64,000 nt of DNA from Archangium sp. (lineage in GTDB: Bacteria > Myxococcota > Myxococcia > Myxococcales > Myxococcaceae), in NCBI GenBank assembly GCA_030695565.1, contig JAUYRZ010000058.1, positions 1-64,000 on the forward strand, in the 5' to 3' direction. A model generated the notes under the pieces. That model did no database searches and was not told where the DNA came from. It saw nothing but the letters and a program-made list of their open reading frames with translations. This document shows, piece after piece, positions 6,466 through 41,939 of this stretch; positions within the stretch are counted from its first letter, which is position 1; each line of letters begins with the position of its first letter. Made by a program: the position numbers and the translations under genes.

Positions 6466-6788
6466 CGGCTTCCCGCGGGCAAGACTCAATGTCAACACGA
6501 GCCGACCGCTCAGCGGTGCGAACTCGCGGTGTTCATGCCGGGAGCGCTACGGAGCCGACTTCGCTCGGGCACAGGGCCTGGAGGGCAGTCGTGGCGAGTT
6601 GACGACGCCGTGCTCGATCAGGGCAGCCCCTCGCCTCGGGCAAGGGTCTTCACCTTTTGTCCGCGAGGTGAGGGGCTCGTGCGTCGTTTGGCACGACGAC
6701 GGTCATTCGCGTGCCCTTCACCCTTTGAGCCTGCAGCGCCTCGCGATGAGCGCAACGCGCTTTCCCTGAGGTGTTAGCAGCCGTGCGC
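6466..6788. other. Intergenic segment without a convincing gene
   Basis: About 320 bases between the divergent LON-domain gene and the small ORF at 6789. Only low-quality frames overlap here and none has a recognisable domain or ribosome binding site. It presumably carries the promoters of the two flanking genes. Confidence 0.4.
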
Positions 6789-29647: not shown

Positions 29648-31153
29648 TCACCGGTCTCTCAAGCCCTCACCCAGCCTACGGCCGACCTCTCCCGCTCGCG
29701 CAGGGAGAGGTGGGAGTACGCCTTCATGAGCGAGCAACCACGCCTCAAAGCAAGGCGCCCAGCGATGCAGAAATCGCCAGTGCTCGACGAAGCGGGCCAC
29801 GATCTGATCCGGTGAAAGGGTGCTGATCAACTCGCAGCTGCGGCTGACCGCCTGCTCGTGAGTGCGAACACAGCCCGCCGCCGCCGTACCCACCGTCCGC
29901 TCCAACGCCTCCATCAACGCGCGCTCGGGAAAACCCTCCACCCCGGGATCCTGAATCATCAGCGGAAACTCGACGCTGCGATCCGCACACGTCACGCGCA
30001 CCGAGCCCTCCACCCGCTGCCCGCGCAGTGAACTCTCCAGCTCGAACGTGCGCATGGCCGAGTCGTCCTTCCGCTTCTCCGAAGCCGGCGACTCACACCG
30101 CCCCGTCACCATCGCGCTCAACCCGGCGGCCAACGCAGGCATCTCGGGCGGAGGCGTCTTGCACCGCCACCGCGGTGGCTCCCAGCGGCCCACGCCCCCG
30201 AGCTCCGGCGCTTCCGGGCCGCCGAACTCTGCTGCCAGCTCTCGATGCAGCCATTCACTCCCGGCCGGAGCACCTTTCGCGCGCGCGAGATGATGGGCCT
30301 GCGCCGCGTCGCGCAGCTTCTCCACCTGCGCACTCACCGCCGGCAGCCCGAGAAACAGACTGGCCACCTGCGCCGCGTGGCCCCGCTTCTTCGCAGCGAC
30401 GGCTGCCTCGACCTGGGGCCACAACTGCGTGCGCAACGTCTCGAGCATCAAGCGCGCTTCCGTGCGAGCGGGGCCGGGTGAAGCAGGCAGCAACGAGAGC
30501 ACCCCTGCCGCGCGCCGAGCCCGTTCAGCCGGCTCGAACGTCGCCGCTTCATCGAGACACGCGCGAGCCGCGGCATCAGGCGACGCGGGAGGATGCTCGA
30601 GCACGCACCGCAGTTGCGCGCAGGGGCTGTGTTCATCGCACATCGTGGTGGGGGATTCAGGAGCGGTGCCCATCGCGTCGGGCGCTTCGACCTTCAGCTT
30701 GTCCCGCTCCAATTCATCCCTGCGTTGCGCGCTCTGCGAGCCACCCTGCCGGGTCGCCCGCACGCGCGCCTCCGCGAGCAAGGGCTCGAGCTGAACGACC
30801 TCGTCACCCAGCGCCGCGCTCATCAGCGCACGGAGCTCATCGGATCGATACGTCGCGCTCAGGGCGTTCAACTCCTGCTGCACCGCTTCGATGCCGCGCT
30901 CTTCCCGCAGCGTCAGCAAGCCGGAGATCACCTTGCGAGCACAGCTGCGCCGCGCCGCATTGAGCCGCGACGACTCGCGCACCAACGTCTCGCCCGGAGC
31001 CCGTAAGAGCAGCGCGTCGAGCTCACCACGAACCCGCGCGTCGAACTCCGCGAACGAGTCACACTGCTCGGCGTCGCGCTGAAGCTGCGCGCTGGTGCTC
31101 ACGCAGCCCGAGGCGAGGAGCGCAACCAGCACCATGTGCAGCGGGCCTCTCAA
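29648..31153 (-). CDS. Hypothetical lipoprotein, helical
   Basis: 501 residues. The signal peptide has lipobox LASGC (lipid Cys17). The rest is rich in Ala, Arg and Glu and predicted to be largely helical, with several Cys pairs (CEHPP-like regions, CKTPPPE, CADRS). I recognise no family. The last ~17 codons (ARAGEVGRRLGEGLRDR) are encoded by a palindromic intergenic-type repeat at 29664-29713, so the native C-terminus may have been replaced when the repeat inserted. The gene is divergent from the DUF4178 gene at 31245. Confidence 0.65.
   Translation of the reverse strand: MRGPLHMVLVALLASGCVSTSAQLQRDAEQCDSFAEFDARVRGELDALLLRAPGETLVRESSRLNAARRSCARKVISGLLTLREERGIEAVQQELNALSATYRSDELRALMSAALGDEVVQLEPLLAEARVRATRQGGSQSAQRRDELERDKLKVEAPDAMGTAPESPTTMCDEHSPCAQLRCVLEHPPASPDAAARACLDEAATFEPAERARRAAGVLSLLPASPGPARTEARLMLETLRTQLWPQVEAAVAAKKRGHAAQVASLFLGLPAVSAQVEKLRDAAQAHHLARAKGAPAGSEWLHRELAAEFGGPEAPELGGVGRWEPPRWRCKTPPPEMPALAAGLSAMVTGRCESPASEKRKDDSAMRTFELESSLRGQRVEGSVRVTCADRSVEFPLMIQDPGVEGFPERALMEALERTVGTAAAGCVRTHEQAVSRSCELISTLSPDQIVARFVEHWRFLHRWAPCFEAWLLAHEGVLPPLPARAGEVGRRLGEGLRDR
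29664..29713. repeat. Palindromic repeat at the 3' end of a lipoprotein gene
   Basis: CCCTCACCCAGCCTACGGCC then GACCTCTCCC, GCTCGCGCA and GGGAGAGGTGGGA. A diverged member of the family also found at 17397, 35703 and 36661. It provides the last codons of the minus-strand lipoprotein. Confidence 0.5.
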
Positions 31154-31244
31154 CTTCGCGCGAGTGTGCCACGGCCGCCTCCTGCACAGGCCACCTCAGA
31201 AATGAGCGCCACCGGGGCGTGGGCATGATGAAATCCCCCCACTC

Positions 31245-40567: not shown

Positions 40568-40788
40568 TCACAGGATTGGCCCGCGCACCTTCTCTGGATG
40601 GTGCTTGAGGGCCTCCCGTTTGGTCAGGCCGCGCGGCAGATCTTTCTGCCCTCCGCGTTGGAGAGGCCCCAGAAAGGCATGGTGGTCTTCATGTAGGCCT
40701 GCTGGCTCTTCGCGCGCGTGGGGTCGCCCTCGGCTCGGAAGCGGGCGACGAGCGCTGAACGCACGGCTTCTGGGTCGATTGCGGCCAT
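40568..40788 (-). pseudogene. DNA alkylation repair (AlkD-like) N-terminal fragment
   Basis: From ATG 40788 the frame reads AEGDPTRAKSQQAYMKTTMP and FWGLSNAEGRKICRAA, the conserved start of AlkD-type HEAT-repeat glycosylases (D-P-x-R-A...Y-M-K-S-x-x-P-F-x-G). It hits a stop after about 54 residues; the next frame continues LTKREALKHHPEKVRGPIL and stops at 40568. An AlkD is normally over 220 residues, so this is a decayed remnant with a frameshift (a GCC run) and loss of the C-terminal three quarters. Confidence 0.6.
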
Positions 40789-41309
40789 GCGAGCGCTGAC
40801 TACCACCGTTCAACTCGAGGGCAGTCGAGGGGTCACTTGCTGCCGCAGCGTTGGGGGCTGAGGCGATCCCGCGTCGGTGGCTCGAATCCGTGCGTCAGCG
40901 CGCCTCACCGCGGCCCGCGGAATACCAGTGCAACGACCTCTCAGCCGTTGCGGCCGGTCTGCTGGACACACACGGCAAGTAGGCCCTGGTCGCCTTGAGG
41001 GAAGGCAGTGTCGATCGTGGCAGCCCTGCGATTGACGCGGGCTGGCCTCTCGGCTGCGGGCGAAGATCCTCAGGTGGTCCGGTGGCGCATTCTGAGTCGT
41101 AACAACCCTGTAGTGATGCGTGACTACAGGGTTGTTACGGCTGGGAAAGTCGCCCCGGCCGCACCTGGTCACGTGAGGATCCACGCCAGAAGTCGAGAGG
41201 CCTGTTCGCGCCGGGCAACGCCGCGATCACCCGCAGCCCCCCGCGCTTCAAGGCTGCCTTTCGAGTGCGCCCTCGACTGCACTCGGCAGGACCAGTAGTT
41301 CCACGCGAC
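40789..41309. other. Gene-free region with nested inverted homology
   Basis: About 520 bases without a believable gene. Its centre is the long palindrome at 41036-41210. Sequence near 40822 (GCAGTCGAGGGGTCACTTG) also resembles the reverse complement of sequence near 41260-41290 (GCAGTCGAGGGCGCACTCG), so the inverted homology probably spans most of the region. The aldolase promoter must lie here. Confidence 0.5.
41036..41210. repeat. Long imperfect palindrome with perfect 17-bp core stem
   Basis: Core arms CGTAACAACCCTGTAGT (41098-41114) and ACTACAGGGTTGTTACG (41123-41139) are perfectly complementary around the loop GATGCGTG. Outside them the arms keep pairing with gaps: GGCG near 41083 with CGCC near 41151, GATCCTCA (41065-41072) with TGAGGATC (41174-41181), and GGCCTCTCG (41044-41052) with CGAGAGGCC (41194-41202). 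No coding or T-tract is associated. Could be a MITE-like element, a structured RNA or a recombination site. Confidence 0.7.
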
Positions 41310-41939
41310 ATGGAGCACGCCCTTCGCGAAGACATCGTCCGGCATTGCCGCTTCTTGCATCAGCGCGGCTATCTCGCGGCGAACGACGGCAACGTCTCCG
41401 TGCGCCTCGACGCGAAGCGGCTCCTGGTCACCCCCTCCGGCGTGCACAAAGGTTTCCTCGAACCCGACGATCTCGTGATGGTCGACCTGCGGGGAAAGAA
41501 GCTCAGCGGCAAAGGCCAACCCACCGGCGAGCTCTCCCTTCACCTGCGCACGCTGGCGCAGCGGCCCGACATGTCCGCCGTCGTACACGCGCATCCACCC
41601 GTGGCCATCGCCATGTCGCTCACGAAGAGGCGGCTCGATGGAATCCTCCCCGAAGTGACGCTCTCGCTCGGCAAGCTCCAGGTCGTGCCCTACGCGAGAC
41701 CGCTCTCTGATCAGCTCGCGCGCAACGTCGCTCACGCGCTCTCTCACTTCAACGCGGCGATCCTCGAACGTCATGGAACGGTCGCCCTCGGCCGCACGGT
41801 CGCAGAAGCCTACGGACTGACCGAACGGGTCGAGCACGCCTCGCAGGTGTTGTGGTCTGCCTACGCGGTCAGCACCCCGAAGCCCGTGCCCGCGAAAGAA
41901 CACCGCGCGCTCCTGCGCATGTACGAGGAGAGCCGATGA
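41310..41939 (+). CDS. Class II aldolase, FucA-like; probable methylthioribulose-phosphate aldolase
   Basis: About 209 residues of the zinc class II aldolase/adducin family. Motifs: ANDGNVSVR, VTPSG, the Glu in TGELSLH (catalytic), zinc His pair VVHAHPPVA and third His in LERHGTVALG. It overlaps mtnA by ATGA (41936-41939), so the two are translationally coupled. MtnA makes 5-methylthioribulose 1-phosphate. The partner could be a dehydratase (MtnB) or the Ald2-type aldolase giving DHAP and a methylthio-aldehyde. Closer resemblance to FucA and the absence of mtnC/D/E nearby favour the aldolase. The ATG at 41310 is preferred over upstream in-frame starts. Confidence 0.78.
   Translation: MEHALREDIVRHCRFLHQRGYLAANDGNVSVRLDAKRLLVTPSGVHKGFLEPDDLVMVDLRGKKLSGKGQPTGELSLHLRTLAQRPDMSAVVHAHPPVAIAMSLTKRRLDGILPEVTLSLGKLQVVPYARPLSDQLARNVAHALSHFNAAILERHGTVALGRTVAEAYGLTERVEHASQVLWSAYAVSTPKPVPAKEHRALLRMYEESR

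Follow-up and report, generated by a model that had tools for sequence, protein, structure and literature searches.

A palindrome in an Archangium genome is probably a gene-less copy of a dispersed element that encodes a MarR-like protein

The palindrome at 41036–41210 of the window (the whole 64,000-nucleotide stretch of Archangium sp. contig JAUYRZ010000058.1 that was analyzed) is probably a gene-less, MITE-like copy of a mobile element that encodes a MarR-like protein, and its core is probably the operator pair of that protein. The original prediction had described a 175-base imperfect palindrome with a perfect 17-bp stem, an 8-base loop and no T-tract, and all of these features were found: the outer arms of the inverted repeat (41036–41084 and 41162–41210) are 49 nt long and 76% complementary, the inner arms (41079–41114 and 41123–41158) are 36 nt long, 78% complementary and contain the perfect stem and the loop, and a scan of the palindrome for a T-tract terminator returned none. 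The 206 bases at 41020–41225 fold with z-scores of -9.27 and -10.35 on the two strands, which none of 200 shuffled sequences equaled; the palindrome is beyond chance, and it is not solitary. It sits in the interior of a 263-bp unit at 40992–41254 that belongs to a dispersed family and has the ends GCC...GGC. We take this unit, which is larger than the 175 bp first described, as the window element on the basis of arm-model matches, arm pairing and an edge of conservation at the GCC. Its left arm (40992–41084, forward strand), a conserved terminal inverted repeat of about 93 bp, matches the arm model at 56.9 bits (E = 1.2e-14), and its right arm (41162–41255, reverse strand), also a conserved terminal inverted repeat, matches at 68.9 bits (E = 2.0e-18). 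The core palindrome, with the 17-bp stem and 8-base loop, was placed at 41098–41139 by inverted-repeat search and dyad analysis. The outward extension to 40820/41290 that had been suggested proved to be a separate 22-nt match of 86% outside the unit, which we took for chance. The region had also been called gene-free; the codon-usage gene caller indeed placed no gene within the unit, although two mechanical ORFs (96 and 124 aa) cross it.

Related elements are dispersed through the genus, for which we compared six genomes (G000–G005), G000 (8.5 Mb in 134 contigs) being that of the window. BLAST of G000 with 41020–41225 gave 60 matches, counting the self-match and both-strand duplicates. A sequence-only arm model, built from 63 arms of G000, G001 and G003, was run within the genus at E up to 0.01 on the best 150 candidates per genome, all counts being lower bounds; it matched at least 97 arms in G000, 99 in G001, 39 in G002, 150 in G003 and 43 in G004, and none in G005, so that arms are present in five of the six genomes. 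At E up to 0.001, 25 arms were found in G002 and 24 in G004, and in a reversed-sequence control comprising the window and 40 loci the best arm-profile match had an E of 0.54. The wider family was covered by whole-element BLAST of 59 genomes (best 12 candidates each), which gave matches in four, three of this genus and one outside it with a single weak match; by these searches, the element appears so far to be known from one genus. The palindromic MITE of the original prediction was right in kind, the element being short and dispersed, with inverted arms and many copies, and the converse possibility of a palindrome with no other copy falls because copies are many in its own and related genomes. 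The window also holds a second, much degraded family member at 6574–6767, with a left arm at 16.7 bits (E = 3e-4) and, by eye, an inverted counterpart about 190 bp further on, and a 29-nt fragment at 31140–31168 that resembles the arm where it is most conserved (11.9 bits, E = 0.0097) and is possibly a chance match.

Conserved inverted arms of about 93 bp with GCC ends enclose cores that vary. When we profiled the ends (54 arms from G000, 61 from G003 and 22 from G001), conservation rose in all three genomes from about 0 bits just outside the element to 1.7–1.9 bits where the terminal GCC begins, with a weak residual bias of up to 0.36 bits over the 9 bases outside; this profile favors conserved first bases because the arms were chosen for matching from the first five model positions. 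Copy-to-copy BLAST, which is free of that selection, starts 4 bp outside the GCC in the pairs L140/L152, L146/L147 and L202/L210, and in L103/L111 and L134/L135/L154 the likeness reaches further out. Target duplications, which had been proposed as a check, were not seen: none of 2–9 bp was present at 33 well-ended pairs, and no length exceeded 95% of 200 shuffled pairings. A mobility enzyme was likewise not found, PF01797 being the transposase family covered. The two arms of one element are no likelier to be alike than arms taken across elements, with a left–right likeness of 0.597 within versus 0.588 between elements in G000 (31 pairs; 1759 of 10,000 permutations as high) and of 0.652 versus 0.681 in G003 (16 pairs; 9882 of 10,000). 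Arm pairing looks inherited, without upkeep by compensation.

The interiors between the arms differ strongly from copy to copy. From 121 interiors of G000, G003 and G001 we obtained 29 distinct cores with a long palindrome, which are not independent because few types cover them. Across these 29, half-dyad self-complementarity averages 0.76 at a spacing of 21 bp and 0.14–0.38 at the other spacings between 10 and 43; 17 are clear dyad pairs (which reach 0.83), every one centered 21 bp apart, and the remaining 12 are weaker or built otherwise. The 21-bp geometry is common to three dissimilar classes, namely a CAAC type (O1, O4 and O5), GTMATGGNCCATKAC (O2) and GTACACCSGGTGTAC (O3), of which there are two cores, at 1.0 and 0.67. 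Type O1 is that of the window core, which contains two operator-like dyads, both putative sites: GTAACAACCCTGTAGTGAT at 41099–41117, with two mismatches against GTRACWACNNNGTWGTYAC, was located by O1 pattern search, and GTGACTACAGGGTTGTTAC at 41120–41138, with no mismatch, by pattern search and dyad analysis. Their centers, 41108 and 41129, are 21 bp apart, and the dyads are themselves imperfect (self-complementarity 0.67 at 21 bp). Genome-wide in G000, the O1 pattern occurs at 32 sites with up to two mismatches, compared with four for a backwards control. By coordinates and fetched loci, 27 of the 32 lie inside 18 elements (two of which have one detected arm), and this holds for all 14 sites with at most one mismatch; the five sites outside elements all have two mismatches and no arm nearby (best E = 0.21). 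Seventeen gene-less elements of G000 keep O1 sites. The O1 pair is present in fewer than half of the copies in this genome (18 O1-holding elements versus at least 97 arm matches), others being of a type of about 110 bp, of a 657-bp type or built on further cores.

The distribution of operator types was surveyed, at up to one mismatch, in fetched loci that had been picked for their arms rather than genome-wide. O1 occurred in 10 of 41 G000 loci and was absent from all 40 of G003, all 20 of G001 and all 20 of G002/G004; O2 in 14 of 40 G003 loci, 4 of 20 from G001 and none from G000; O3 in 5 of 40 G003 loci only; O4 in 4 of 20 G001 loci; O5 in 5 of 40 G003 loci and 1 of 41 from G000; and O6 in 3 of 41, 5 of 40 and 1 of 20 loci of three genomes. 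None of O1–O6 was found in the 20 G002/G004 loci at this threshold. Operator type tracks the presence of a MarR gene in four of the five paired types, with one stray site; no cognate MarR gene was found for O4 in G001, which is a fragmented draft, or for the single-dyad O6 in its three genomes. Cores with a single GTACAGCSSGCTGTAC-like dyad, again with no cognate MarR found, occur in three genomes (L137, L140, L152, L194, L202, L204, L210 and L213). A palindromic sequence of about 110 bp (GTTGCGGATTGTACAATCGATG ..., often with a central CCGTACGG) is seen by eye in the middle of many elements (L129, L131, L133, L130 and L145), sometimes twice, perhaps as a separate mobile repeat nested within them. 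The copies at L134:2538–3195 and L135:2514–3170 are 657–658 bp long, about 94% alike with a likeness that runs into a flank, and rich in CTCTTTTAGAG-like dyads; a cargo ORF was considered for them, and no convincing gene was seen.

Some long copies contain an ORF of 157–171 codons between an arm and the core. All four intact proteins match the Pfam domain MarR_2 (PF12802) at or above its cut-off, one of them barely (27.5 versus 27), and a profile search matched MarR chains of the PDB (best E = 2.4e-6). From a 4-sequence alignment, AlphaFold2 returned five models, the best with a mean pLDDT of 77.4 and pTM of 0.65 and the others with values from 68.7 to 37.5; Foldseek matched the best model to MarR-family structures (best E = 2.8e-7, TM about 0.55–0.70). 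The encoded protein is, as modeled, a MarR-like winged-helix protein. Strong homologs (E below 1e-50) in the six genomes number five: one in G000, one in G001 and three in G003, of which one has a premature stop. Four of the genes lie between two clear arms and the fifth, at a contig end, has one clear and one weak arm; each adjoins a core. The cores beside the MarR genes of their respective genomes are O1, O2, O3 and O5, and it is O1, the core type of the window, that adjoins the gene of G000 (C108:196859–197329); the intact G003 proteins go with O2 and O5. Because the core follows the 3′ end of the gene instead of occupying its promoter, and because the five genes have a similar upstream block in common whatever the core, the core is unlikely to serve in promoter autoregulation. 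In six of six protein pairs the largest differences are at third codon positions (0.22, 0.24 and 0.39 by position in the closest pair), a modest excess, as expected of a protein that may be under selection. Similarity of the recognition helices correlates with similarity of the cores among five proteins with a Mantel r of 0.62 (6 of 120 permutations as high), which is no more than suggestive.

More distant relatives of the gene are scattered. Six weaker homologs comprise four with weak arm matches (E from 1e-5 to 0.006) and two without. No strong homolog was found outside the genus in 96 genomes of the family, where a weaker one in a second genus (G006, E = 6.8e-22) has no arms; comparison of the protein with plasmids gave no match, and comparison with PHROGs gave weak matches only. 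In G004, L220 has a distant MarR-like gene whose 3′ side carries a palindrome, GCGTCATCAAAATTGACAAC...GTTGTCAATTTTGATGACGC, followed by a weak arm match, and its core is by eye closely like those of L157, L161, L167 and L171 in the same genome. At L222 (G000 contig 125, 41304–41678), a distant MarR-like gene lies beside repeated TTTGTAAACAAA dyads without arms, possibly a second MarR–palindrome family. In G003, a contig end carries another distant MarR-like gene, and immediately next to it is a perfect palindrome whose arms measure 23 bases (L226:1–56), with a weak arm match nearby.

To describe where copies sit, we scored 50 elements of G000 and G003 with both neighbors within 400 bp, using genes called with a simple custom codon-usage caller; this set does not include the window copy. 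Convergent genes flank 26 of these elements, tandem genes 14 and divergent genes 10, compared with 25 convergent among 193 background pairs (Fisher p = 2.3e-8). Neighboring 3′ ends overlap an element or come within 15 bp of it in 30 of 55 instances, 5′ ends in 1 of 27, and in four cases the stop codon lies inside the terminal GCCYTGA of the element, an overlap of 7. At L148 (G000 contig 22), an element whose core is of the 110-bp kind rather than O1 is inserted between convergent genes. Their stop codons have 278 bp between them in G000, versus 3 bp in G004 and roughly 28–46 bp in G001, G002 and G003 (by eye). Hairpin-like repeats are visible by eye at this site in G001 and G003, and G005 has one of the two flanking genes. 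The window copy lies upstream of a class II aldolase gene (41310–41939, forward strand; Pfam PF00596) and beside a gene remnant, both outside the element; the remnant is an 81-aa ORF at 40571–40813 on the reverse strand, taken from the ORF list and without a Pfam match, which by eye appears to derive from a longer gene of the relative G003. Since G001 and G003 hold about 950 bp of other sequence, coding by eye, at the place of the window copy, there is no clean empty site for it. The remnant, together with the loss of these roughly 950 bp as judged by eye, indicates that the element sits in a decayed stretch.

Beyond what was first noticed in the palindrome, the full-length relatives encode a MarR-like protein, and the stem is best read as paired putative protein-binding dyads. 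We infer that two MarR-like dimers bind these dyads, whose spacing of 21 bp, two helical turns, would place both dimers on one face of the DNA. Such binding would mark the element's own copies, gene-less ones included, for copying or insertion, with catalysis supplied by host enzymes or by a transposase encoded elsewhere, or it would alternatively protect the palindrome; that the protein acts in specificity or in protection is plausible, though we would stop short of calling it probable. The cis-acting parts would be the arms and core, which is why gene-less copies would retain them. Movement of the element is itself something we infer. A wider and more tentative proposal is that the family exemplifies a class of selfish bacterial element whose sole gene encodes a sequence-specific DNA-binding protein, in which MarR and paired operators spaced by 21 bp may diversify together into parallel groups of specificity; each protein would serve the gene-less copies of its own group, with catalysis borrowed from the host.

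These observations could also be those of an ordinary MITE family, moved by an unlinked IS transposase, in which the MarR gene rides along as a passenger of a few copies and the dyads of the core have no part. The inverted arms with defined ends, the far greater number of gene-less than of gene-bearing copies and the many copies with other cores agree with this account, but we consider it rather unlikely, given that all five strong MarR genes are in elements, that 17 gene-less elements of G000 retain O1 sites, that one 21-bp geometry is common to three dissimilar core classes (the third of two cores only), and that 2–9 bp target duplications are absent. With one transposase family searched, PF01797, of which G000 has none, the account keeps some probability. 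If the element were instead a domesticated bidirectional terminator or insulator, core-bound MarR dimers would form a roadblock to read-through between convergent genes, which suits the excess of convergent gaps, the concentration of neighboring 3′ rather than 5′ ends at elements and the hairpin-like repeats of relatives at L148 (by eye). It is an unlikely account nonetheless, as 24 of the 50 elements lie outside convergent gaps, the window copy is itself placed upstream of a gene, a genome with several parallel operator types fits selfish elements better than it fits a role for the host, and survival of harmless insertions only could also produce the convergent enrichment. Over roadblock termination and passenger cargo we favor a specificity or architectural role for the protein, a preference that we hold with some reserve.

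Two further readings are very improbable. An operator-like sequence together with a MarR protein could mean that the dyads are decoys or part of a chromosomal MarR regulon; for O1, however, a regulon is disfavored by the location of all the best sites in elements, and the five outside sites, with their two mismatches, are close in number to the four of the control. The structured RNA named in the original prediction, or a plain transcription terminator, would agree with the very stable predicted hairpin, but it is hardly credible without a T-tract or co-variation of left and right arms. A structured RNA in particular is unsupported because the arms show no extra left–right likeness and the palindrome matches no Rfam family at gathering score; the best-scoring candidate, mir-1329 (E = 0.083 and 0.22), lies far under that score and was judged chance.

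Candidate trans-acting proteins, together with putative sites that match them in three genomes, make the spread of transposase-less palindromic repeats in bacteria a testable question; the same family provides a natural series of MarR proteins with differing apparent specificities and one operator geometry. Palindromic MITE-like repeats are a known kind, and the MarR-and-operator design appears to be the new part; titles and abstract openings among the best matches listed from the open PubMed Central library yielded no description of MarR-encoding palindromic elements. Like a MITE, the window copy is short, belongs to a dispersed family, has inverted ends and contains no called gene; it differs in having no target site duplication of 2–9 bp. 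The autonomous relative of a MITE would encode a transposase and share its ends; the full-length relatives known here encode a MarR-like protein. That protein resembles the MarR regulators MexR, MepR and SlyA in its MarR_2 domain, predicted MarR fold and dyad-symmetric putative sites, but its gene lies inside a dispersed element, and the putative sites lie past its 3′ end and in other copies, at no known promoter. Integron attC sites, a candidate comparison because copies lie after stop codons, are characterized by conserved core boxes and an integron integrase.

YPAL, ERIC, RUP, Correia and similar elements are, according to PMC2229807, short intergenic and mostly palindromic mobile repeats, for most of which, RUP excepted, that paper reports no matching insertion sequence. 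The present family is likewise one of short intergenic palindromic repeats, and it departs from them in its variable core of paired dyads, its full-length relatives with a MarR gene and the absence of a 2–9 bp duplication. YPAL, a Yersinia palindrome of about 168 bp with target duplications of 3–26 bp (PMC2229807), is set apart by description from the window element, which has 263 bp and no duplication of 2–9 bp. REP, BIME and REPIN sequences, as described in PMC3733652, are dispersed intergenic palindromes in which inverted pairs form the unit, and in both respects our element is like them. REP units are 20–40 bp long and bear an unpaired GTAG or CGTC tag (same source), whereas the arms here are about 93 bp long and end in GCC; some cores begin with GCGTC, whose bases are by eye paired, unlike the REP tag. 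A RAYT-type protein (PF01797, IS200-like) is absent from five of the six genomes, including G000, and occurs once in G003, and identity with the REP/RAYT system is unsupported for G000 because it has no PF01797 protein. A further parallel with REP/RAYT, as outlined in the same source, is that gene-less copies may be served in trans by the protein of a few full copies, with a MarR-like protein here in place of the transposase.
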